A stretch of 42,495 nt of DNA, from assembly GCF_017571465.1 (NCBI RefSeq), contig NZ_JAGETV010000021.1, positions 1-42,495 on the forward strand. Direction: 5' to 3'. The translations under genes were made by a program, and so were the position numbers. This document shows, in pieces, positions 12,828 through 29,974 of this stretch. The notes under the pieces were generated by a model. That model saw only the letters and a program-made list of their open reading frames with translations, ran no database searches and was not told the DNA's origin. Origin of the DNA: Thiomicrorhabdus marina (lineage in GTDB: Bacteria; Pseudomonadota; Gammaproteobacteria; Thiomicrospirales; Thiomicrospiraceae). Positions within the stretch are counted from its first letter, which is position 1. Each line of letters opens with the position of its first letter.

Positions 12828-13997
12828 TTAAAAGACCCACTCACTAAACCCGATTAAGATCAGCGGGATGATGATAAACAATAATAACATATACGCAGCA
12901 ACATACAGCTTGTTGCGCTCAGCTAAACTAGCCAAGGTTACCGCAAGATTTAATGGAATTTCGCGCAGGAACGGCACACCATAAATGACGATTACACCAA
13001 TCAAATTATAGAAGAAATGCACTAACGCAATTTGCAGTGCGAAGATTGCATTATCACCGGAAACCGCCGTTGCAGCTAATAATGCGGTAATCGTCGTACC
13101 AATATTCGCGCCCAAGGTGAAAGGATACACCTGACGTAGGCTAAATACTCCGCTCCCTGCCAGCGGCACAATCAAACTCGTGGTCGTTGACGATGACTGC
13201 ACAAGAACGGTGATTCCTGTTCCCGAGGCAATACCTGAAACAGGACCGCGTCCGACCGCAGAATGCAGAATACGTTTAGCGCGCCCTACCATCACAAGTT
13301 TCAAAATCTTACCAATCGCAGTAATGACTACGAAAATCAACGTAATTCCAAGCAAAATCAACACGGAGCCAGATAAAACATCCGAGAATCCCCAAGAGTC
13401 GAACGTGTTTTGCAGAAATTTAACGGGAGGTTTGACGATCGGTTTTAAGAAATTAAACTCTTTTACCGACAAGGACTGTCCACCGAGCATCATATTGGCA
13501 AAGAAAGCGCCAATTTTTTCAAGAATACCGAACATGATTTCGAGCGGAAGGAAAATGACCACACTTAAAACGTTAAAAAAGTCGTGAACCGTCGCGGCCT
13601 GAAAAGCTCGCTTAAAATCTTCGCCTTTTTTAACGAAGCCCATCGAGACAATAGTATTGGTGATTGTCGTACCGATATTCGCGCCCATTACCATAGGAAT
13701 TGCAACTTCGACGGGCATACCGCCGGCAACAAGACCCACAATAATAGAGGTAACCGTACTGGAGGATTGAATCAGTGCAGTAGCGATAATACCGATAACT
13801 AGTGCCGTAATCGGATTACTTGCAAATTCAAATAATTCTTTGGCTTGTCCCCCTGCTGCTTCTTTGAAGCCACTGCCAATCATTCCAACGGCAATAAGCA
13901 ATAAATAAACGAGCAAAGCGATTGTCAGCCACTGTCGCCAATTCGCAGCGCTATTTAGCTCCTGCTCTTTTGGTGTTTCTAAAACGTTCTCGGTCAT
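12828..13997 (-). CDS. Na+/phosphate cotransporter, NptA/PNaS family
   Basis: The 389-residue inner-membrane protein has about eight to ten hydrophobic segments and the internal duplication typical of the family. Each half carries QSSST (77-81 and 267-271) and GANIGTT (105-111 and 296-302), which form the Na+ and phosphate sites in type II cotransporters. The C-terminal PhoU-like domain found in many bacterial members is absent; a separate small coiled-coil gene follows instead. The start ATG lies 25 bp from a 60-bp hairpin element, so the leader or promoter contains this insertion. Its role is phosphate uptake driven by sodium, or leak control. Confidence 0.9.
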   Translation of the reverse strand: MTENVLETPKEQELNSAANWRQWLTIALLVYLLLIAVGMIGSGFKEAAGGQAKELFEFASNPITALVIGIIATALIQSSSTVTSIIVGLVAGGMPVEVAIPMVMGANIGTTITNTIVSMGFVKKGEDFKRAFQAATVHDFFNVLSVVIFLPLEIMFGILEKIGAFFANMMLGGQSLSVKEFNFLKPIVKPPVKFLQNTFDSWGFSDVLSGSVLILLGITLIFVVITAIGKILKLVMVGRAKRILHSAVGRGPVSGIASGTGITVLVQSSSTTTSLIVPLAGSGVFSLRQVYPFTLGANIGTTITALLAATAVSGDNAIFALQIALVHFFYNLIGVIVIYGVPFLREIPLNLAVTLASLAERNKLYVAAYMLLLFIIIPLILIGFSEWVF

Positions 13998-15354: not shown

Positions 15355-15897
15355 ATGGAGCCTGCTACCAATAATTCATCGATAATTTACCGACGTCCAA
15401 ATTTAGAAGATGGACTCAACATTCACCAATTAATAGCCGATTCTCCTCCGTTGGATGTGAACTCAAGCTATCTATATTTTCTGCAAAGTTCGCACTTCAC
15501 ACAGACCTGTGTGTTGGCCGAACAAAACGGCGAGCTGCTTGGCTTTGTCTCCGGCTATTTGCGCCCAGACAAACCGACTGAACTGTTTGTCTGGCAAATG
15601 GTGGTCGCCGAAGCCGGTCGCGGCAAAGGTATCGCCAAACAACTGGTACGCCAGCAACTAAAACAAGCGTTGCAGTTGCAACCCAATCTGCAAAGTTTGA
15701 GTTGTACCATCAGCCCAAGCAATCAAGCATCGCAAGGCGTGTTTATAAGCCTAGCCAACCACTTTGGCTTACAACTCAGTAAAGAGACGTTCTTGACCGA
15801 GGCGCATTTCGCCGGCCAAGAGCATGAAGCCGAAGATTACTACTGCCTACAGCCCCCTGCCGGTCAGAGCATTCAATCGCGCCTTGAACAGCGATAA
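15355..15897 (+). CDS. ectA: L-2,4-diaminobutyrate N-gamma-acetyltransferase EctA
   Basis: The 180-residue GNAT-fold enzyme transfers acetyl from acetyl-CoA to 2,4-diaminobutyrate, the second step of ectoine synthesis. The family start YRRPNLEDGLNIHQLI, the ectA-typical DVNSSYLYFL (34-43), the acetyl-CoA loop GRGKGIAKQL (88-97) and SCTISPSNQAS are all present. The ribosome binding site is poor (GAAG about 10 bases before the ATG). ectB follows after 54 bp. The acidic composition fits a salt-tolerant cytosol. Confidence 0.95.
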   Translation: MEPATNNSSIIYRRPNLEDGLNIHQLIADSPPLDVNSSYLYFLQSSHFTQTCVLAEQNGELLGFVSGYLRPDKPTELFVWQMVVAEAGRGKGIAKQLVRQQLKQALQLQPNLQSLSCTISPSNQASQGVFISLANHFGLQLSKETFLTEAHFAGQEHEAEDYYCLQPPAGQSIQSRLEQR

Positions 15898-15951
15898 CAG
15901 GCACTGAAGTAAATAAACAATTTTCAAAATTTAAATAAGAGAGACCAATTG

Positions 15952-17214
15952 ATGTCAGCTTTAGAAATTTTTAATACTTATGAATCCGAAGTTCGCGGAT
16001 ACATTCGTTCTTTCCCAACCATTTTCGATACCTCTAAAGGCGCGGAAATTTGGGATACCGAAGGCAAACGTTATATCGACTTCTTCGCCGGTGCCGGTGC
16101 TTTGAACTACGGTCACAACAATCCGAAAGTGAATGCCGCGATTATTGATTACTTGCAACGCAACGGTATCGGCCACGCATTGGATATGGGGACCGTTGCA
16201 AAGAAAGAGTTTATCGAAGCTTTTGTGACCAAAATCCTGCAACCGCGTCACCTTAACTACAAGTTACAATTTGTCGGCCCGACAGGGACTAACGCCATTG
16301 AAACCGCGCTGAAAATTGCGCGTAAAGTGAAAGGCCGTAAACAGGTGATGAGTTTCACCAACGGCTTCCACGGCATGTCGATGGGGTCATTGAGTATCAC
16401 CGGTAACCAGTATTACCACGACGACAGTTACGGCGTTCCGGGTTATACCTACCAAGTGCCTTTCCATAACTATCTTGGCGATAAGGTCGATACCATCGCC
16501 TATTTACGTAAGATTCTGGAAGACGCCTCTTCAGGTACCGAACTGCCGGCGGCAATCGTTTTGGAAACCATTCAGGCTGAAGGCGGCATTAACGTTGCCG
16601 GCCCGCAATGGCTAAAAGACCTGCGTAAGATCTGTGATGACTTCGATATCCTGATGATTGTTGATGACATTCAGGTCGGTAATGGCCGTACCGGCGACTT
16701 CTTCAGTTTTGAACGCGCCAATATCCAACCGGATATCGTTACCCTGTCGAAATCCATCGGTACCGGTCAACCAATGTCTTTAGTATTAATGAAGCCGGAA
16801 CTGGATAAATGGTCTCCTGGCGAACACTCAGGGACTTTCCGAGGTAACAACCTGGCATTTATTGCGGCCGCTACCGCCATCAACGAATACTGGGCGGACG
16901 ATACCTTCGCCAACGAGAATAAAGAAAAAGCCAAACTGATTGAAGAGCGCATGCAAGATTTAGCGCTTTCTTTCCCACACCTGACCAAAGATGTTCGCGG
17001 CCACGGCTTTATCTGGGGCATCGAATTCCGTGATGCCGATTTATGCGGCAAAGTCTGTAGTGAATGTTTCGACAAAGGTCTCGTCATTGAAACCGCCGGC
17101 TCGGAAAGTAATGTCATCAAATTTTTAGGGCCATTAGTTATCACAGAAGCGCTGATTAACGAAGGTTTCGACATTTTGAAAGACGCGATCAAAACCTGTT
17201 CAGCCGACTACTAA
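15952..17214 (+). CDS. ectB: Diaminobutyrate--2-oxoglutarate transaminase EctB
   Basis: The 420-residue class III PLP aminotransferase converts aspartate 4-semialdehyde to 2,4-diaminobutyrate, the first dedicated step of ectoine synthesis. It shows the phosphate-binding GPTGTNAIETALKIAR (109-124), the PLP-ring aspartate in MIVDDIQVGNGRTG (D238/D239) and the Schiff-base lysine K267 in TLSKSIGTG. ATG 15952 was chosen over the TTG one codon earlier; a GAGAG ribosome binding site precedes it. It lies between ectA and ectC in one operon. Confidence 0.96.
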   Translation: MSALEIFNTYESEVRGYIRSFPTIFDTSKGAEIWDTEGKRYIDFFAGAGALNYGHNNPKVNAAIIDYLQRNGIGHALDMGTVAKKEFIEAFVTKILQPRHLNYKLQFVGPTGTNAIETALKIARKVKGRKQVMSFTNGFHGMSMGSLSITGNQYYHDDSYGVPGYTYQVPFHNYLGDKVDTIAYLRKILEDASSGTELPAAIVLETIQAEGGINVAGPQWLKDLRKICDDFDILMIVDDIQVGNGRTGDFFSFERANIQPDIVTLSKSIGTGQPMSLVLMKPELDKWSPGEHSGTFRGNNLAFIAAATAINEYWADDTFANENKEKAKLIEERMQDLALSFPHLTKDVRGHGFIWGIEFRDADLCGKVCSECFDKGLVIETAGSESNVIKFLGPLVITEALINEGFDILKDAIKTCSADY

Positions 17215-17229
17215 CCAATAAACTAATAA

Positions 17230-17248
17230 GGCTCACGAGTGGTGAGCC
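17230..17248 (+). other. Intercistronic stem-loop between ectB and ectC
   Basis: GGCTCAC (17230-17236) pairs with GTGAGCC (17242-17248) across a 5-base loop, 15 bases after the ectB stop and just before the ectC ribosome binding site AAGGAT. There is no T tract, so it is more likely an mRNA-stability or translation element than a terminator. Confidence 0.5.
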
Positions 17249-17265
17249 AAAAACAAGGATTTTCC

Positions 17266-17658
17266 ATGATTGTAAAAAACCTCTATGACGATGTGATCGG
17301 CACAGACGCCGATGTAGACTCTAAACAATGGACTAGTCGCCGTTTACTGCTAGCCAAAGACGGCATGGGCTTTTCGCTACACGACACTCTAATCAAAGAA
17401 GGCGAAGACCTGCATCTTTGGTATAAAAATCACTTAGAAGCAGTGTATTGCATCGAGGGCGAAGGCGAAATCTACGACAAGGCGACCGGCATTACCTATC
17501 CGATTCGCGAAGGCACCGTCTATGCACTGGATCAGCATGACCAACATATTCTTAGCGCCAATAAAGGCTCGCAGATGCGCATGGTTTGTGTATTCAATCC
17601 GCCGGTAACCGGTCGCGAAACTCACGATAAAGACGGTTCTTACAATCTGCCGGAATAA
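17266..17658 (+). CDS. ectC: L-ectoine synthase EctC
   Basis: The 130-residue cupin closes N-gamma-acetyl-diaminobutyrate to ectoine. The expected metal-ligand positions are present as E58, Y86 and H94, one residue later than the numbering I recall for characterised EctC (Glu57, Tyr85, His93). HLWYKNHLEAVYCIEGEGEI (50-69) is the family signature. The start was placed at the ATG reading MIVKNLYDDV, nine codons into the open frame, because it matches the family start and follows AAGGAT. It is the last gene of ectABC; no ectD hydroxylase is nearby. Confidence 0.96.
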   Translation: MIVKNLYDDVIGTDADVDSKQWTSRRLLLAKDGMGFSLHDTLIKEGEDLHLWYKNHLEAVYCIEGEGEIYDKATGITYPIREGTVYALDQHDQHILSANKGSQMRMVCVFNPPVTGRETHDKDGSYNLPE

Positions 17659-17746
17659 TCGGTATCGGGCTGCAATAAAGGATTCATCCACACTTGTAGC
17701 GTAAAAGGTAAAATCGGGCGTAAGTAAAAATAAATAGGTATGTCCG

Positions 17747-19106: not shown

Positions 19107-20564
19107 ATGTCTAACTCAGAAAACTTGTCTGCATCACGTTCGTTAAGTGTAGAAAAAATTGGCGGTACTTCAATGAGCGCCTACGAAGCGGTACGCGACA
19201 ATATCATTCTGTACCCAGAAAACCGTTATAACCGTGTTTTTGTCGTCTCCGCATATGGCGGCATCACCAACTATCTGCTTGAGCACAAAAAAACCGGCGA
19301 ACCTGGTGTTTACGGCCTGTTTGCGCGCGGCGATGATATGCACGCTTGGCAGGAATCTTTAGAAACGCTACGTGCCGAATTGCTGAAAATCAACGCCGAA
19401 TTATTCTCCGACGGCGAACAGCTAAAACACGCGAATGCCTTTATCGACGAACGTATTACCGACACTCGAGAAGTTTTGATCAATCTGCACGAAATCTGTA
19501 GCCACGGTCACTTTGAACTGCGTGAACACCTACTGACCGTTCGTGAACTTTTGGCTTCCATCGGTGAAGCCCACTCGGCTTACAATCTGGCCGAGTTGCT
19601 GAAAAACCATGGTGTAAACAGTGTCTTGGTTGACCTATCCGGTTGGGACGTCAAAGAAAAAATGCCGCTGGACGAGCACATCACCACAGCGTTTGCTGAC
19701 ATTGATTTCACCACCACTTTACCGATTGTCACCGGGTACGCGCACTGCTCGGAAAACCTGATCAGCACTTTCGACCGTGGTTACTCTGAAATGACTTTCA
19801 GTCGTATCGCGGTAATGTTAAAAGCAACTGAAGCCGTTATTCATAAAGAATTCCACTTATCTTCTGCTGACCCGCGTCTGGTCGGAGAAGACAATGCCGT
19901 GCCAATCGGGAAAACCAGTTACGACATCGCTGACCAGTTGGCAAACCTAGGCATGGAAGCAATTCATCCGCGAGCAGGAAAAGGTCTACGTCAGGCAGAA
20001 ATCCCATTGCGAATTATGAATACGTTCGAGCCGGATCATCACGGCACCTTGATTACCGCCGATTACAAAGCGGCAGAACCACGCGTTGAAATCATCGCCG
20101 GTATGGAAAGCCTATTAGCGGTAGAAATCTTTGACCAAGAAATGATGAATCAGCAAGCGGACTACGAAACGCAAATTCTGAAAATCACTAAGCGCCTAAA
20201 TTGCCAAGTGGTCAGTAAAGATTTCAATGCCAACACCATCACCCTATATATCGACGGTTCTTTAAAGAAAATCTCTAGAGCGACTGTGCAGTTTGAAGAG
20301 TTGTTCCCGTCGGCGCAAATCACCACCAGCAAACTTTGCATGGTCTCGGCGATGGGTTCCAATATGCGTGTTAAAGGCCTATTGGCAAAAGCAATTCAAA
20401 GTCTTGCTGACCAAGACATCAATATCGAAGCGATGCACCAAAACACTCGTCAGGTTGAGATGCAGATTTTCGTTGATGCCGAGCACTACCCAACGGCGGT
20501 AAAAGCCCTGCACCAAAAACTGATTGAAGTGCATAACCACGGCAATGCGATTGCCAAGCACTAA
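19107..20564 (+). CDS. ask: Aspartate kinase specialised for ectoine synthesis (Ask_Ect)
   Basis: The 485-residue kinase phosphorylates aspartate to feed aspartate semialdehyde into ectoine. The N-terminal KIGGTSM (17-23; usual form KFGGTSM) and VVSAYGG are the ATP and substrate sites, and two C-terminal ACT regions follow (the first around residues 335-395, the second, VSAMGSNMRVKGLLAKA, after it). The long helical insertion around residues 60-150 and the start SVEKIGGTSMSAYEAV are features of the Ask_Ect branch, which is usually relieved of lysine/threonine feedback. Normally this gene is directly after ectC; here chrA lies between. A strong terminator follows. Confidence 0.9.
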   Translation: MSNSENLSASRSLSVEKIGGTSMSAYEAVRDNIILYPENRYNRVFVVSAYGGITNYLLEHKKTGEPGVYGLFARGDDMHAWQESLETLRAELLKINAELFSDGEQLKHANAFIDERITDTREVLINLHEICSHGHFELREHLLTVRELLASIGEAHSAYNLAELLKNHGVNSVLVDLSGWDVKEKMPLDEHITTAFADIDFTTTLPIVTGYAHCSENLISTFDRGYSEMTFSRIAVMLKATEAVIHKEFHLSSADPRLVGEDNAVPIGKTSYDIADQLANLGMEAIHPRAGKGLRQAEIPLRIMNTFEPDHHGTLITADYKAAEPRVEIIAGMESLLAVEIFDQEMMNQQADYETQILKITKRLNCQVVSKDFNANTITLYIDGSLKKISRATVQFEELFPSAQITTSKLCMVSAMGSNMRVKGLLAKAIQSLADQDINIEAMHQNTRQVEMQIFVDAEHYPTAVKALHQKLIEVHNHGNAIAKH

Positions 20565-23917: not shown

Positions 23918-24625
23918 ATGAAACGATGTTATTTAGCCTTTTTGCGCCATGCTCACTATCACCAAGCTGAGCAAGTACCGAGCGCACACCAACCATACGG
24001 CCTGACCGATCAAGGAATTGAAGAATGTCAGACAGCCGCCGATACCCTTCAAAAACTGCTTGAGCACCAAAACTGGGAACTGCACCCCAATTTGTACAGT
24101 GCCAATCTATTGCGCTCTTGGCAAACCGCTAATGAAATCAAACGGCACCTACCTTGGCCAAGCCAAATTAGTAGCACTGCGGCATTAAACGAACGCTCAG
24201 TCGGTTCCTTAGCGAATCTAACGCTTGAACAAATCGAAGCCGTCATTGAACAAGACCCGCGTTTTTCTGAACTGCCTCCACACTGGAAGAGCAATTCCGA
24301 TTTCTGCCTACCGGTAGATGGTGCCGAATCATTAATGCAAGCCGGCACCCGCGTAAGTCAGTTTATTCAACAAACGCTTAATCAAGTCTTAGCTCAAGGT
24401 TCGCACAGCGGCAAGCCACAACTGGTCGTTATGGTTGGGCATGGTGCATCTTTCCGCCACGCAGCCTATAAATTGGGCATTTTGGATAAAGCCGAAATCG
24501 GCCGTCATTCCATGCATTACGCACAACCGATGGTATTTGAATGTCGTCAAGAACAACACGCGATGGCAATTGACCATCTGGCGGGCAAATGGAAAGTCCG
24601 TCAAGAAGTTGAACGACCGGATTAG
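23918..24625 (+). CDS. Histidine phosphatase family protein, first gene of the GAK-type operon
   Basis: The 235-residue protein has the phosphoglycerate-mutase-like fold: catalytic histidine H11 in FLRHAHY (family form RHG), the ER of LNERSVGSL near residue 90, and the second histidine in MVGHGASFRHAA. It should hydrolyse a phosphoester, possibly a phosphohistidine or a sugar phosphate. It is followed after 10 bp by a metallophosphoesterase gene and then the kinase and ATP-grasp genes, all on one strand. It may thus reverse the phosphorylation done by its operon partners; this is inferred from position only. Confidence 0.82.
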   Translation: MKRCYLAFLRHAHYHQAEQVPSAHQPYGLTDQGIEECQTAADTLQKLLEHQNWELHPNLYSANLLRSWQTANEIKRHLPWPSQISSTAALNERSVGSLANLTLEQIEAVIEQDPRFSELPPHWKSNSDFCLPVDGAESLMQAGTRVSQFIQQTLNQVLAQGSHSGKPQLVVMVGHGASFRHAAYKLGILDKAEIGRHSMHYAQPMVFECRQEQHAMAIDHLAGKWKVRQEVERPD

Positions 24626-24635
24626 AGGAAAAGCC

Positions 24636-25868
24636 ATGTCGACATTACTATTCAATGCATCTGCTTCATCGAATAATCTTCCGCCGCACAACTGGATAGC
24701 GCCGCAGAAAACCGTCCACTTTATTTGCGATTTGCATGCCGACGCAGATGCCTTGTTGGCTTCTCTGAAACTTGGTGGTTTATTGGCAGCTGAATCCACA
24801 TTAGAAAATCCGCTATTGACCGAAAAAGCCTCGGATGCCAGCGTAATTATCGGCGGCGACTGCTTTGACAAAGGCCCAAGTAATCTAGCACTTTTCCGTC
24901 TGCTAAAACGCCTAGTCGAATCCAATTTGGATTTACAAATCCTTGCCGGCAATCATGACTTACGCGTCTATGCCGGTCTATTGGCGACCGACTTTCAGGA
25001 CGATCTCCGCCAAGCACATTTTTTTGTACGTATGGGACGCAAAGCAGCTTCGCTGTTTGCCGAGGTCTATCAGCAATATTGTGCCGAGATGCCGTTACCG
25101 AAAACCCCGTCGAGCTGGATTGAAAATTCGCTAATGCCGGATGAAGAGTGGTTTGAACTCTTTCCAAAGTACGCTTGCAACTTCATGACAGCGAAACAGA
25201 TTAAAAAAGAGCTCAAACAGATTCGCAAGAAACGCATCGACTTTATCAAGGCATGGCGCGAATACGGCTACGATTGGCAACATCTGGCGCTGGCGGTAGA
25301 AAAAGCCAAACAGCTCTTTATCGAGCCGGACGGCGAGTTTTACTGGTTCTTCCAAAATTTGGAACTGATGCAACGCCATGGTAGCTACCTGTTCTGCCAC
25401 GCCGGTGTTGATGACCGTATCGTACATCGCATTTTGGATGAAGGCTTCGAGCAGATTAATCTAGAATTCAACGACAAGCTGCGACAAGGTAAGATTTTCG
25501 AAATCTACTACAGCGAACTGGGCAATGTCGTGCGTACCAAATATCGTGACAAAGACAATCCACTCAGTGAACTCGGCGTGCAATCTCTTAAGAACCAGGG
25601 AATTTTCGCTCTGGTTAACGGCCACCGTTCTCATGTCAATGGTCAACAATTGGTGTTGCGTAACAAACTATTGCACATTGAATGTGACGCCGAACTTAAC
25701 GCCAACTGTCGCGCCAAGAGCCATCTAGCGCCTGGAGCGGCTGCCGTGACAATATTCAACACTTATGGTACGGTCAACGCTTTGAGCACTAACCGTTTTT
25801 CACTCGGTGTTTTACAACGTAACTTTGAGCCAGGTCATCAAACTTGGCAAGAAAGTTTGCTAGTCTAA
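24636..25868 (+). CDS. Calcineurin-like metallophosphoesterase
   Basis: The 410-residue protein has metal-binding motifs CDLHAD (31-36, D32 and H34), GGDCFDKG (73-80), GNHD (105-108), CHAG and NGHRSH, the order of the PPP/calcineurin-like superfamily. A helical insertion rich in Lys and Trp (about 165-245) separates the metal motifs and may set the substrate. The start was set at the ATG behind GAGG at 24625, just after the stop of the previous gene; the open frame begins upstream inside that gene. Substrate unknown. It is the second phosphohydrolase of the operon. Confidence 0.82.
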   Translation: MSTLLFNASASSNNLPPHNWIAPQKTVHFICDLHADADALLASLKLGGLLAAESTLENPLLTEKASDASVIIGGDCFDKGPSNLALFRLLKRLVESNLDLQILAGNHDLRVYAGLLATDFQDDLRQAHFFVRMGRKAASLFAEVYQQYCAEMPLPKTPSSWIENSLMPDEEWFELFPKYACNFMTAKQIKKELKQIRKKRIDFIKAWREYGYDWQHLALAVEKAKQLFIEPDGEFYWFFQNLELMQRHGSYLFCHAGVDDRIVHRILDEGFEQINLEFNDKLRQGKIFEIYYSELGNVVRTKYRDKDNPLSELGVQSLKNQGIFALVNGHRSHVNGQQLVLRNKLLHIECDAELNANCRAKSHLAPGAAAVTIFNTYGTVNALSTNRFSLGVLQRNFEPGHQTWQESLLV

Positions 25869-25902
25869 CTGACTGCATTCTAGGGTCTAAAAGGAGAGAG
25901 AC

Positions 25903-26196
25903 ATGGCCAAGAAAACAGACTACTTTGAACATGAATCTCTGCAGGATCGCGATGCAGTGGTCGACTATTTACAAGCCTTGGCAAAAGCGATTCAAAAAGG
26001 TGAAATTCTGCTTTCCGACGGTGATGAAAAACTGCTCTTACAGCCAAACGATCTAACATTGATGAGCCTTAAAGCCAGTACTACCAAAAAGAGCCAAAGC
26101 TTACGTATCAAGCTCACCTGGAATCAGAAAAATGATGATGAGCCGGACAAAGAGCCGTTATTCATTAAGGCTAAAAAGCCTAAAAAATCCTCTTAA
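25903..26196 (+). CDS. Amphi-Trp domain protein (GAK system component)
   Basis: This 97-residue protein opens with FEHESLQDRDAVVDYLQALAKAIQKGEI, followed by amphipathic strands, a conserved Trp in IKLTWNQK and a Lys-rich tail. This is the amphi-Trp domain, known mostly as a small partner in GAK (Grasp, Amphi-Trp, Kinase) clusters and without an assigned function. Gaps of 34 bp upstream and 18 bp downstream put it in the operon. It may be the modified substrate or a carrier. It has two Ser in its last positions (KKSS), which is worth noting beside an HprK-type kinase, whose relatives phosphorylate serine in a small protein. Confidence 0.85.
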   Translation: MAKKTDYFEHESLQDRDAVVDYLQALAKAIQKGEILLSDGDEKLLLQPNDLTLMSLKASTTKKSQSLRIKLTWNQKNDDEPDKEPLFIKAKKPKKSS

Positions 26197-26214
26197 TATA
26201 AGCACGCTAGCAGA

Positions 26215-27843
26215 ATGAACAAATTGTTTCCAGAAATCTATGAGAGCCTGCGCTTTCTCCTTATCGATTTGCAAAAACAGCTACTGGCACTTATCGAGGG
26301 GATTCGCGATGCCGATCCGGACAGCTTTAAGAAAAGCCTGAGTCGCACCGCTTATATCGAAAACGCACACCTTAGCCTACTGAATCGCGCTTACCGGACC
26401 ATTCAAAACAGCAGCGGGGATTATCGTGCGGAAATTCAAGGTTACGAGCATGTCTCTTACAGCTTAATCAGTCTGTCACGCCAATTAGAAACGGTAAGCT
26501 ATCAATTACAGCGTAACGACCCTTTAAAAAACTTGCAAAAGCGCCGTGTTTTAGCGGCTCTTCAAGATCTCTATAATGGTTTGGAATTGATTGAACCTGC
26601 CATCGAAAGCGACGATCTGACTCTATCGATTGACATTTGCCAATTACAAGCACGTATCGAAAAAGCCTGTAGCCAACAGCTGAAACGTTATCAGCAAAAG
26701 CTACAGGAAAAATACGAAGACGATCTGATACAAAGCAGCTTTGTCGTCAAAGATATTCAGTACATGGCCAAGACGCTGCTAAAAGTCGGCGAAGGCGTGA
26801 TTTCCGGTAAACTGGGTCAATTCATCGAAATCGACAGTTATCAAAAACTGGAAGCCACTTTATCGGAAATGGATTTCGATCTTGCCGAACAGCAGATTCA
26901 TATTCACCCGATGGGCGAAACCAAATCCGGTTGCACTATTTCTGGTGTGGCCTCTGCCAGCGAAGCACAAGACGAAGTATTGGCAATTTTCAAAGAAGGC
27001 CAGAAAAAGAAACTGCTGGAAGAGAAAATCGGCATCGAAACTTGGCATGAAAAATTCCCTGGTATCGCTCCGGAAGTGTATTCCTACCAAAAACAAGGTG
27101 ATAAAGCCGCCCTATTGTTTGAGTATCTAACAGGCCAGACTTTCGACAAATTACTCCTAGATAATCGCAAAGTCTTACAAGACGGGCTGAACTGTCTGTT
27201 CTCGACCTTAACCGAGATTTGGCAGGCGACCGAACAAGAAAAACGTATGCCGACTAGCTTTATGTCGCAATTACAGAAACGTCTCAGTAGCATCTATGCG
27301 GTACACCCGGAATTCAATTTAAAAGGTCTACAGATTGGTGATGCCAAACAGCCCTCGCTGGAAAAACTGATTAAACAAGCCGCCAAGCTAGAAGAAAAGC
27401 TACAACCGGCCAAAGCGGTTTATATTCACGGCGATTTCAATGTCGATAATATTCTCTTCGATGTTATTAAGTGCGAGATTAATTTCATCGATCTGCATCG
27501 CTCCGAATATCAGGATTACAGTCAGGATTTATCGGTATTAATGGTCTCTTTCTACCGATTAAAACAATATGACCCAAAAATCCGCCAACGCATTCGCTTG
27601 AGTATGCAAGCAATTTACGACTTCGGTGCGGATTACGCCGAACAAAATAACGATAATGACTATGCTTTGCGCATGGCTTTAGGTTTAGCGCGTTCTTTTA
27701 TCAGCTCAACCCGTTTTGTTCTCGATAAAGAACACGCTCGATCTATGCTCTATAAAGGGCGCTTCTTACTGGAACATCTTAGCCAAATCGATAAACAAGA
27801 ATATAAAAACTACCAGTTACCTAAGGAGCTATTCCGTGATTAA
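26215..27843 (+). CDS. PhoU-like helical domain fused to an APH-type kinase
   Basis: The 542-residue protein has an all-helical N-terminal half (1-200) resembling PhoU-type bundles and a C-terminal aminoglycoside/choline-kinase-like domain: ATP lysine probably K260 in AIFKEG, catalytic D407 in IHGDFNVDN (404-412), metal-binding D426 in FIDLHR. Kinases of this fold phosphorylate small molecules or proteins; the substrate is unknown. The stop overlaps the ATP-grasp GTG start by 8 bp (GTGATTAA). I do not recall it as a core gene of the GAK clusters, so it may be an added module. Confidence 0.78.
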   Translation: MNKLFPEIYESLRFLLIDLQKQLLALIEGIRDADPDSFKKSLSRTAYIENAHLSLLNRAYRTIQNSSGDYRAEIQGYEHVSYSLISLSRQLETVSYQLQRNDPLKNLQKRRVLAALQDLYNGLELIEPAIESDDLTLSIDICQLQARIEKACSQQLKRYQQKLQEKYEDDLIQSSFVVKDIQYMAKTLLKVGEGVISGKLGQFIEIDSYQKLEATLSEMDFDLAEQQIHIHPMGETKSGCTISGVASASEAQDEVLAIFKEGQKKKLLEEKIGIETWHEKFPGIAPEVYSYQKQGDKAALLFEYLTGQTFDKLLLDNRKVLQDGLNCLFSTLTEIWQATEQEKRMPTSFMSQLQKRLSSIYAVHPEFNLKGLQIGDAKQPSLEKLIKQAAKLEEKLQPAKAVYIHGDFNVDNILFDVIKCEINFIDLHRSEYQDYSQDLSVLMVSFYRLKQYDPKIRQRIRLSMQAIYDFGADYAEQNNDNDYALRMALGLARSFISSTRFVLDKEHARSMLYKGRFLLEHLSQIDKQEYKNYQLPKELFRD

Positions 27844-28771
27844 AGCTGTTGAGCAACTCAAAATCGGCGTGGTCGGCATTCCCGGCAAATGGTCGACCGA
27901 AGTGCTTGCTGATGAGATAGAAGCCAAAACCGGCTTCCGTTGCGTCATCGATATCGAGAAAGTCGTAGCGGATTTATCCATGCCGACCGTCACCTACAAC
28001 GGAACTTGTCTCTGTGAACTTGATGCAATAATCATCAAAAAAATCTCGCAGACCTATAGCCCGATGGTACTTGACCGCTTGGAAATTCTCCGCTTTGTTG
28101 AATCGTGCGGCGTCAAGGTGTATTCAAAGCCGTGTGAAATCATTCGTCTGGTTGATCGCATGAGCTGTACAGTATCACTGGCAAGAGCGAAAATTCCAAT
28201 GCCGAAAACCGTGATTACCGAAGATATCAATGCGGCATTAAATGCCGTCAAAGATTTTGGCGAAGTGGTTCTAAAGCCCTTGTTTTCAACCAAAGCACGC
28301 GGCATGCAGGTCATCAGTTCAGAGCAAAGCGATAAGAAAATCCTTAATGAATTACAAGAATTTTACGATGTACACAAATTCTTCTATATTCAACAAAAAC
28401 TCAATTTGCCCGGTCATGATATGGGGTTGATTTTTTTAGGTGGCGAATACCAAGGCGCTTATGCCCGTGTCGGTAATGGCGAGAGTTGGAACACCACGAT
28501 TCATTCCGGCGGAAAATATGCAGAAGTCTGTCCGAATCAAGAAATTATCGACATGGCTCGTAAGGCTCAAGCGCAATTTGATTTAGCCTACACAACGGTC
28601 GATATTGCCGAAACCGATAATGGTCCGGTCTGCTTCGAAGTTTCTGCATTCGGTGGTTTTAAAGGCGCACAAGAAGGCTTGGGATTGAATATGGCCGGCG
28701 CTTATGTAGACTATGTGATTGCCGACTTGCGAGCCGAACAGCAATCCAACGCGATCAATCCTGCCGACTAA
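27836..28771 (+). CDS. GAK system ATP-grasp enzyme
   Basis: The 311-residue enzyme is of the RimK-like ATP-grasp type: VKVYSKPCEIIRLVDRMSCT (linker and ATP site), VVLKPLFSTKARGM (ATP-binding lysine and glycine loop), and metal-binding VDIAETDNGPVCFEVSAFGGF near the C-terminus. Such enzymes join a carboxylate to an amine, for example adding amino acids to a protein or small molecule. The start is GTG, chosen because an ideal AAGGAG lies 7 bases before it, it overlaps the preceding stop, and the 40 codons upstream only shadow the kinase gene. The next gene starts 21 bp downstream. Confidence 0.85.
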   Translation: MIKAVEQLKIGVVGIPGKWSTEVLADEIEAKTGFRCVIDIEKVVADLSMPTVTYNGTCLCELDAIIIKKISQTYSPMVLDRLEILRFVESCGVKVYSKPCEIIRLVDRMSCTVSLARAKIPMPKTVITEDINAALNAVKDFGEVVLKPLFSTKARGMQVISSEQSDKKILNELQEFYDVHKFFYIQQKLNLPGHDMGLIFLGGEYQGAYARVGNGESWNTTIHSGGKYAEVCPNQEIIDMARKAQAQFDLAYTTVDIAETDNGPVCFEVSAFGGFKGAQEGLGLNMAGAYVDYVIADLRAEQQSNAINPAD

Positions 28772-28792
28772 ACCGGAAACGATTCTGAATTT

Positions 28793-29974
28793 ATGAGTAA
28801 CCCGACAGCCTTGTACCAACAATTAATCAGTCATAAACCGCAAGCACTTGCCCAGAACCTTTGGCTGATTCTGCCGCAAGCGAGCTATCGTCTTTTCAGT
28901 AATTCGCAGAATCTACTGAATGAATTGCACGACTACTTTGTTGGACAGGCTACTTGGCAAGCGCCAAACGATAACCACCCCCTCGTCACAGAGATTTACC
29001 TTTGGCAAAGCACTGATGCAGCGACTCTGATTGCCGCCACGCCTTGGGAAGATTGGTTGCGAGAAGCCGGTAAAAGTGGCCGCAAAGACGCAGTATACGA
29101 TCTGCATTTTACCCATGGCGATATTCGTCTGTTACATAAAGTTAAAACCGGCATGCTGTTTGTGCAACCGAGCACCAATAATTCACACGATGCGCTAATG
29201 GCTTTCGGGCCGGCAGAACAGCACCCAAATCAAATGATTAATTTCATTCTGACCCAATACCTTAATCAACACTTGCGAGAAGATTGGCTACTTGGACATG
29301 CGGCAGGCCTGCAAATTAAAGGAAAAGGCTTGGCGATTGCCGGTCTATCCGGCGGTGGAAAATCAACCTTGATGTTGCAGTTATTGGAAGATGGCGAACA
29401 CTTTATCAGCAACGATCGTCTGCTGTTTGATCACCTTACCGATACAGGGTTAAGCATGCGCGGCATTCCAAAACAACCGCGAATCAATCCCGGCACGATC
29501 GTGCATAATTCTCGCCTGCATCCACTTATGAACGAGCAACAGCGCGCCGATTTTTTGGCAATGCCACAAGAAGAACTACGCGCCTTAGAGCTCAAATATG
29601 ACGCACCGGTTGATAAGATTTTCTGGCCGAATTGTTATCAAGGCGAAGCTAAACTGGATTATCTAGTCATCCTGAATTGGCAGGTTAATAGCGACCAAAC
29701 CACTTCGATTAAACAGACAACCTTAGAAGCATCGCCAGAATTGATTCCGGCCTTAATGAAAAGTCCGGGTCCATTCTATTGCTCAGCTGAGGGCGAATTT
29801 TTAAAAAACGGGATTACGCCTGATGCCGAAACTTATCGGCAACGCCTTGGCGAAGTACCGGTTTTAGAATTGAATGGTAAAGTCGATTTTACAGTCGCCA
29901 AACAACTGATTTTAGATACCTTAAGCCCTACTGAGAGCTTTGCACGAGATAGTTTCACAAATAAAAATGGTTAA
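28793..29974 (+). CDS. HprK-related kinase B (GAK system)
   Basis: The 393-residue protein resembles HPr kinase/phosphorylase in its middle: Walker A GLSGGGKST (184-192) and the downstream FISNDRLLF, which has the place of the HprK catalytic acidic segment. HprK itself phosphorylates a serine on HPr; this relative has a different, long N-terminal region and no HPr gene is near. It is the 'kinase' of the GAK cluster. Its stop overlaps the stop of the convergent hmuV by 4 bp, so the operon ends here. Confidence 0.85.
   Translation: MSNPTALYQQLISHKPQALAQNLWLILPQASYRLFSNSQNLLNELHDYFVGQATWQAPNDNHPLVTEIYLWQSTDAATLIAATPWEDWLREAGKSGRKDAVYDLHFTHGDIRLLHKVKTGMLFVQPSTNNSHDALMAFGPAEQHPNQMINFILTQYLNQHLREDWLLGHAAGLQIKGKGLAIAGLSGGGKSTLMLQLLEDGEHFISNDRLLFDHLTDTGLSMRGIPKQPRINPGTIVHNSRLHPLMNEQQRADFLAMPQEELRALELKYDAPVDKIFWPNCYQGEAKLDYLVILNWQVNSDQTTSIKQTTLEASPELIPALMKSPGPFYCSAEGEFLKNGITPDAETYRQRLGEVPVLELNGKVDFTVAKQLILDTLSPTESFARDSFTNKNG

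Follow-up and report, generated by a model that had tools for sequence, protein, structure and literature searches.

Do six tightly packed genes on one strand of a Thiomicrorhabdus marina contig form a single system, and if so, what might it do? The window, by which we mean the whole stretch of DNA analysed, is one entire contig of 42,495 bases within a 2.83-Mb draft genome, and its source organism is a relative of marine sulfur-oxidising bacteria. At 23918-29974 of the forward strand lie genes for a histidine phosphatase (HPP), a metallophosphoesterase (MPE), an amphi-Trp protein (AMT), a kinase that we call the PhoU-kinase (APH), an ATP-grasp enzyme (GRASP) and an HprK-related kinase B (HPRK), with all frames open and intact and zero internal stops. 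The gaps between them, 10, 34, 18, -8 and 21 bp in the order HPP to HPRK, are exactly those reported, together with the six same-strand genes, in an initial annotation of this DNA. The GRASP gene starts with GTG (27836, behind AAGGAG) and the other five with ATG.

Three of the products place the cluster within the NCBIfam GAK system (TIGR04354, TIGR04355, TIGR04356 and TIGR04357), whose families have been curated without an assigned function. As the initial annotation had proposed, the amphi-Trp protein (TIGR04354), the HprK-related kinase B (TIGR04355) and the ATP-grasp enzyme (TIGR04356) are found together in one operon above their curated cut-offs of 31, 200 and 300 bits, so that by three of the four families the cluster belongs to the system. 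Pfam cut-offs are passed for His_Phos_1, Amphi-Trp, APH, RimK and, marginally, Metallophos (24.5 vs 21.5 bits). None of the GAK-named models matches the PhoU-kinase, HPP or MPE, which the RefSeq record examined lists under generic names ("phosphotransferase", "histidine phosphatase family protein", "metallophosphoesterase"). A literature search on the GAK family names and TIGR numbers found no paper; subscription literature lay mostly outside that search and prior work is possible.

Gene neighbourhoods were surveyed in the best 80 loci of a scan seeded with GAK ATP-grasps, a set that is biased to the window's relatives, includes near-duplicates (e.g. three Onishia taeanensis strains) and partly overlaps our genome samples (e.g. 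locus L125 is a contig of genome G264). GRASP is present in all 80 loci, the PhoU-kinase in 78, HPRK in 73, HPP in 64, AMT in 63 and MPE in 61. Many loci end at contig edges; in the 49 untruncated ones, with more than 6 kb on either side of GRASP, the PhoU-kinase is a constant companion (49/49), AMT is found in 48, HPRK in 47 and the two near-constant phosphohydrolases in 41 each, and all six genes occur together in 39. The order HPP-MPE-AMT-APH-GRASP-HPRK belongs to the window and its near kin; by title, the nearest relatives of the GRASP gene among the 80 loci are Thiomicrorhabdus, Hydrogenovibrio and Thiomicrospira. Most other loci, from further Gammaproteobacteria, Alphaproteobacteria and Planctomycetes, have the order [Nudix]-APH-GRASP-HPRK-[SixA-Nudix]-HPP-MPE-AMT, and L062, L092 and L139 show further shuffles. 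HPP followed by MPE, as direct neighbours among the mapped genes, is kept in 40 of the 49 untruncated loci.

Whole genomes gave the same picture. We searched 274 genomes of the class, 58 relatives and a plasmid collection (n=72,556). GRASP was found in nine class genomes, eight over the cut-off and one (G265) where the gene is split in two frames. HPP and MPE, called at E 1e-30, were each present in 8/274 genomes, every one among these nine, G053 alone being without them, and the PhoU-kinase in 10/274, namely the nine and G196; for these three profiles scoring was limited to the 5 to 10 top first-look candidates of each genome. HPRK is over its cut-off in 17 of the 58 relatives; 14 of these 17, and no other relative, have an MPE match above 500 bits, the remaining MPE matches being below 27 bits. 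Fisher tests of co-occurrence, which ignore shared ancestry, gave 1.3e-14 (MPE in the class) and 6.7e-11. Among the plasmids, five records, three of them from Tritonibacter mobilis, account both for the five highest-scoring GRASP matches and for every MPE match, and in one of them, annotated by RefSeq, the order is CofD-like, NUDIX, phosphotransferase, GAK ATP-grasp, HprK-B, histidine phosphatase, metallophosphoesterase, amphi-Trp. A correlation of pairwise identities among the six families (Spearman 0.52-0.84, 49 sequences each) was set aside because vertical descent alone would give the same.

With 39 of 49 loci complete and the phosphohydrolases confined, in the class sample, to GRASP genomes, the six genes form a single conserved module, a GAK system with added members, of which the window carries the Thiomicrorhabdus-type version (Table 1). 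That catalytic residues are kept (58 to 81 sequences per enzyme family) and that the six co-occur in distant genomes and in several orders argues that the operon is not chance. The neighbourhood survey and the genome profiles agree that the PhoU-kinase and both phosphohydrolases, which the initial annotation had added to the GAK families, are module members; the two outcomes that it had named as contrary, a lack of GAK profile hits and partners local to this genome, did not come true. The enlarged membership appears to be new, and so do three features described below: the change in the ATP-grasp site, the motif of the amphi-Trp protein and the phosphate setting. As to function, we tentatively favour a phosphate-status-controlled cycle of kinases and phosphohydrolases in which the amphi-Trp protein would be a small phosphorylated regulator, a reading that we judge possible, somewhat short of an even chance.

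Table 1. The six genes of the operon, with positions in the window and family model scores.
Gene	Position	Strand	Product	Model and score
HPP	23918..24625	+	histidine (RHG) phosphatase, branch 1, 235 aa	PF00300 59.9 bits
MPE	24636..25868	+	calcineurin-like metallophosphoesterase, distantly ApaH/PPP-like, 410 aa	PF00149 24.5 bits
AMT	25903..26196	+	amphi-Trp protein, 97 aa	TIGR04354 62.8 bits
APH	26215..27843	+	PhoU-like N-terminal domain and APH-type small-molecule kinase domain, 542 aa	PF01636 39.9 bits
GRASP	27836..28771	+	GAK system ATP-grasp enzyme, 311 aa; 8-base overlap with APH gene	TIGR04356 454.7 bits
HPRK	28793..29974	+	HprK-related kinase B, 393 aa	TIGR04355 284.2 bits

By its domain matches the PhoU-kinase is a fusion of PhoU and APH parts, in line with the "PhoU/APH-type" label that it had first been given. 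The APH domain lies well over its cut-off of 23.2 bits, and HGDxxxxN plus a metal Asp, which we take to be the APH-type kinase motif, is intact (H405, D407, N412 and D426 in 77/77 aligned sequences). At E 0.01 Pfam PhoU matches the N-termini of 29 of the 33 proteins scanned from the 53-sequence family alignment, the window's own protein being among the four without a match, and the family profile finds solved PhoU proteins in the PDB (4q25, E 8.4e-11). In an AlphaFold2 model with a mean predicted local distance difference test score (pLDDT) of 91 the N-terminal part is helical, and a Foldseek search with the C-terminal part gave APH(3') and choline kinases as the closest folds, a fold likeness that makes no claim of drug resistance. 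The fusion protein has PhoU helices in common with PhoU proteins, and its kinase residues are intact. We know of no PhoU-APH fusion characterised before, though no literature search was aimed at one.

The two phosphohydrolases also keep their catalytic residues. HPP retains R10, H11, R66, E92 and H175 in 64/64 aligned sequences, and its profile found one weak match in the PDB, a phosphoglycerate mutase. MPE retains D32, H34, D75, N106, H107 and H255 in 58/58 and shares GDxxDxGP and GNHD motifs with ApaH/PPP-type phosphatases, the class to which the yeast endopolyphosphatase Ppn2 presumably belongs. The best solved relatives of its profile are ApaH proteins, weakly (E 0.0014), and the window protein stays below the cut-off of the ApaH model (18.2 bits vs 176).

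HPRK carries H169, a Walker A loop (S186-GGGKS-191), N207 and D208 in 72/72 aligned sequences. The Walker A loop is common to HprK/P, and so is the spacing around it: His169 precedes the Walker lysine by 21 residues and Asn207-Asp208 follow it by 17-18, as His140 and Asp178-Asp179 do around Lys161 in HprK, except that HPRK has ND where HprK has DD. Searched against PDB sequences, the HPRK profile found nothing at E 0.001. Since the residues presumed to be catalytic are conserved throughout, all these enzymes look active, as does the ATP-grasp.

The ATP-grasp enzyme departs from its relatives at a metal-ligand position and in a loop. E268 is kept in 81/81 GAK enzymes, and the metal-ligand position after it is Ser (E-x-S) in 81/81 of them vs Asn (E-x-N) in 21/21 non-GAK RimK-type enzymes from the class search; the frameshift-broken L010 was excluded from this comparison. 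The Asn of E-x-N is presumably the metal-binding residue of ATP-grasp ligases. The FGSQG-type loop of the 21 RimK-type relatives reads STKA[RK]G in the aligned GAK enzymes. Judging from the alignment, the GAK ATP-grasp is specifically altered. By profile it falls in the same enzyme superfamily as the amino-acid ligases RimK, MptN and LysX, its solved relatives in the PDB are LysX, ArgX and RimK, and it passes the Pfam RimK domain while staying below the RimK family model TIGR00768 (114.6 bits vs 143.4).

These ligase relatives bear on a carrier cycle, the view taken by the initial annotation, in which the amphi-Trp protein would serve as a covalent carrier in the manner of LysW with LysX, the ATP-grasp would load an amino acid onto it, the kinases would phosphorylate that amino acid and the phosphatases or hydrolases would release it. 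The best models other than the enzyme's own, MptN (165 bits), the RimK family (115) and LysX (107), are consistent with it, all below their cut-offs, since such ligases act on carriers or peptide tails, and an amphi-Trp gene in all but one of the untruncated loci is what a carrier would call for. The uniform replacement of the ligases' metal-binding Asn by Ser argues the other way, as does an amphi-Trp protein without a conserved C-terminus or an attachment residue beyond its N-terminal motif, and amphi-Trp genes are found without a GAK ATP-grasp. We consider a carrier cycle rather unlikely.

We looked more closely at the amphi-Trp protein itself, which the initial annotation had singled out as the best candidate target, pointing to its KKSS tail. 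The protein has an N-terminal F8-x-H10-E-S12-L-Q14 motif, a helix (16-32), four strands and Trp73 (model mean pLDDT 86). Among 63 sequences F8, H10 and W73 are conserved in all, S12, Q14 and G33 at 0.98 and P48 at 0.97. The model matched no PDB fold (best E 1.6), so the fold gave no functional clue; searched against PDB sequences, the profile found weak matches only, the best (E 0.0033) being a designed protein. The tail was rejected as a modification site: zero columns after Trp73 are conserved at 90%, and in most of 26 rows examined (of a 52-row alignment) the chain ends before the KKSS position. The amphi-Trp protein as target is still plausible through the N-terminal F-x-H-x-S-L motif.

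This motif follows the GAK linkage. An amphi-Trp match occurs in 24/274 class genomes, 8 of them among the nine GAK genomes (G098 being the one without) and the other 16 without a GAK ATP-grasp over the cut-off (loci L170-L185 and L187), in 15 of which the amphi-Trp match is over the family cut-off. F-x-H-x-S-L, at residues 8-13, is present in 9/9 GAK-linked sequences (from eight genomes including the window's, with two near-identical ones from G153) and absent from the stand-alone sequences, 0/15 of which have H10 or S12 (15 of the 17 loci were compared, L182 and L185 being left out). The stand-alone proteins mostly have R-D-[IV]-E-K-x-Y there and follow the overall pattern RDIEKxY...KLRRLADALE...EIEFQIKW. 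Since the motif sits immediately before the helix and HprK phosphorylates HPr on a serine at the start of a helix, Ser12 is the natural first test site. Ser12 and His10 are thus, by conservation, a plausible site and a better candidate than KKSS.

Across the 80 loci the module also gains further members: Nudix genes in 37, a SixA-Nudix type in 46 (a count that includes a few other SixA-like neighbours), CofD-like in 28, CHAD in 9, ParA-type in 7, Na/Pi symporters in 6 and PstS-like in 3 (named by eye only, a fourth match at 26 bits being omitted). The accessory profiles were each grown from one seed, and the names rest on one scanned member each: Nudix PF00293 at 59 bits, SixA-like at 60 bits (cut-off 74.5) with NUDIX at 31 bits, CofD_rel_GAK at 541, CHAD at 196, the Na/Pi symporter at 164 and the ParA-type AAA_31 at 109. 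A CYTH part of the CHAD protein, suspected by eye, had no Pfam match. In untruncated loci the Nudix gene directly precedes APH in 23/23 cases and the SixA-Nudix gene directly follows HPRK in 25/30, the other SixA-like matches lying elsewhere in the neighbourhood. SixA-Nudix was not found in the window, where the sole Nudix match has 18 bits; the rest of the genome was not searched for either. As the CofD-like protein is present in just 28/80 loci we do not treat it as defining; it is an accessory of the GAK system, and its family TIGR04357 was found at E 0.001 in 0/58 relatives, the window's own genome included. Further phosphohydrolase-like neighbours were seen by eye (L125 14919-15644; L139 13206-13826 and 11952-13106): a second histidine phosphatase after AMT, another Nudix and an endonuclease/phosphatase-type protein.

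The added Nudix and SixA-Nudix genes, of phosphoanhydride-hydrolase type, fit another alternative, namely that the module makes and recycles a small molecule of its own, phosphorylated or pyrophosphorylated and serving as a nutrient reserve or a signal, with no covalent protein target and with the amphi-Trp protein binding or scaffolding. APH(3') and choline kinases, which the kinase domain resembles, are likewise small-molecule enzymes. On the other hand HprK relatives presumably act on proteins, and among the 25 commonest neighbour clusters, judged by eye, there was no obvious scaffold-making enzyme. A small molecule as the sole object of the module seems to us improbable, to about the same degree as the carrier. 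ABC-transporter genes recur among the neighbour clusters, mainly in the window's own lineage.

The PhoU domain, the CHAD neighbours and the Na/Pi symporters point to phosphate storage rather than to phosphate or an amino acid being loaded onto a carrier. CHAD genes lie 106-4506 bp from the six-gene core in four arrangements: upstream on the same strand in Rhodopirellula and Stieleria (L101, L108, L116), upstream with ParA (L105, L113), upstream on the opposite strand with ParA (L109, L125, L146) and downstream with ParA (L150). The 274 class genomes hold CHAD at 96 places (E 1e-10), or about one for every three genomes. At that rate the 1.22 Mb that the loci span would be expected, roughly, to contain well under one CHAD gene, and the nine found are far in excess of this, with the reservation that related loci are not independent. 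Genomes with the module also tend to have CHAD, in the class (8/9 GAK genomes vs 79/265 others; 7/8 vs 72/228, p 0.002, among genomes at least 90% complete and at most 5% contaminated) and in the family (14/17 vs 5/20). PPK1 was dropped as a co-occurring partner, being near-universal in the family. In the six loci with ParA-type ATPase genes named above these directly adjoin CHAD, and the two are possibly a polyphosphate-granule positioning pair. In PMC6537752 CHAD is described as a polyphosphate-binding module reported at granules. The window has a Na/Pi symporter-like gene of its own (12828-13997, minus strand; 204 bits to the profile of the GAK-neighbour symporters), about 10 kb from the operon and too distant to serve as evidence. 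The tie of the module to phosphate storage, read from domains and neighbours, is suggestive.

Building on the identity and co-occurrence of the members, their intact active sites, the PhoU domain, the motif difference and the phosphate-related neighbours, we infer each reaction, substrate and direction of control of the favoured cycle as follows. The PhoU-kinase would sense phosphate status via its PhoU domain and phosphorylate a small molecule with its APH domain. The altered ATP-grasp would act in the same pathway and attach one more group, either phosphate or an amino acid. The HprK-like kinase would phosphorylate the amphi-Trp protein at F-x-H-E-S-L-Q, with Ser12 as the first and His10 as the second candidate, and the pathway may thereby be switched or anchored. 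HPP and MPE, joined by Nudix hydrolases elsewhere, would strip phosphate back off.

Several observations weigh against this cycle. None of the enzymes has a known substrate. HPRK scores below the cut-offs of true HprK (31.6 vs 240 bits; Pfam Hpr_kinase_C 21.5 vs 33.3). The differences between GAK-linked and stand-alone amphi-Trp proteins extend over the full chain, so that H10 and S12 may be a subfamily signature and not a target. CHAD was not seen in the sampled stretch of 71/80 loci, including all seven titled Thiomicrorhabdus; its link in the family is weaker at completeness of at least 90% (14/17 vs 5/12, p 0.046, kinship uncorrected), and PPK1 does not discriminate (17/17 GAK-bearing vs 19/20 other family genomes). 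Among the untruncated loci HPP is absent in 8, MPE in 8, either in 9 and both in 7, so the phosphohydrolases are not always required beside the core. They come and go as a pair, 7 of the 9 loci without either being without both. In G298 the GAK cluster is without HPP and MPE and the pair sits together about 190 kb off; a genome-wide search of G293, G277 and G053 found nothing for MPE beyond matches below 27 bits, and the HPP profile found none in G053.

A more speculative extension, which we regard as very doubtful, is by analogy with eukaryotes. The module might form and degrade a pyrophosphorylated compound that serves bacteria as a store or a signal. It would then be the prokaryotic equivalent of inositol-pyrophosphate metabolism, with CHAD and amphi-Trp proteins keeping it at granules of the polyphosphate type. 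Such a reading might account for orphan compounds, among them the granules of glucose pentakis(diphosphate) that reportedly occur in Desulfovibrio gigas, a compound that no paper found in our search names. The eukaryotic set consists of a kinase, an ATP-grasp kinase with a histidine phosphatase and a Nudix DIPP, and overlaps the GAK module in fold classes only (protein-kinase-like kinase, ATP-grasp, histidine phosphatase, Nudix); the eukaryotic enzymes have no sequence link to the module. An inositol-kinase identity for the ATP-grasp was rejected, as it has no sequence support and the profile matches ligases in the PDB, and it is entertained within this extension alone. A table in PMC6973038 lists the DIPP Nudix and PPN2 among polyphosphate phosphatases.

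The patchy occurrence of the module within the genus and its presence on some plasmids could also fit an anti-phage or mobile-element function. In a PADLOC search at E 0.001, 0/6 proteins matched, on which anti-phage defence was rejected, and no nuclease- or toxin-type family was over its cut-off among the six; we hold such a function to be most improbable. In one relative (G297, L070 10346-10937, minus strand) a toxin-antitoxin-like pair, RelBE-like by eye, lies between GRASP and HPRK. Other irregular loci were also noted. The GAK locus L158 (G196:C7, 4581 bases) has decayed: it keeps genes of the CofD-like, Nudix and SixA-Nudix types but mere fragments of APH and MPE, and the ATP-grasp and HPRK were not found on this short contig. 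APH and GRASP are in overlapping split frames in L073 (G303), with a stop in MPE, and MPE is in pieces in L160 (G098), through sequencing errors or decay. L146, a cluster resembling those of Gammaproteobacteria on a contig titled as a halobacterial metagenome-assembled genome, is probably mis-binned.

Around the operon, a ribonucleotide-reductase-like gene lies 111 bp upstream, and an ABC-transporter-type gene in the opposite direction overlaps its end by 4 bases, both named by eye. Sigma-70 promoter-like sites (5 vs 9.9 expected) and terminator-like sites (10 vs 8.1 expected) are not above chance, and an Rfam scan of the window gave no match over the gathering score. By eye from translations, 15355-17700 and 19107-20564 of the window resemble an ectoine cluster (EctA, EctB, EctC) with an aspartokinase.

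The PhoU-kinase, the phosphohydrolases, the Ser-for-Asn ATP-grasp and the His/Ser motif of the amphi-Trp protein turn an anonymous cluster into one open to direct bench tests. If the link to phosphate storage is true, the GAK module would represent a pathway of regulation or storage that had gone unrecognised and that our samples have so far shown in Gamma- and Alphaproteobacteria and in Planctomycetes.

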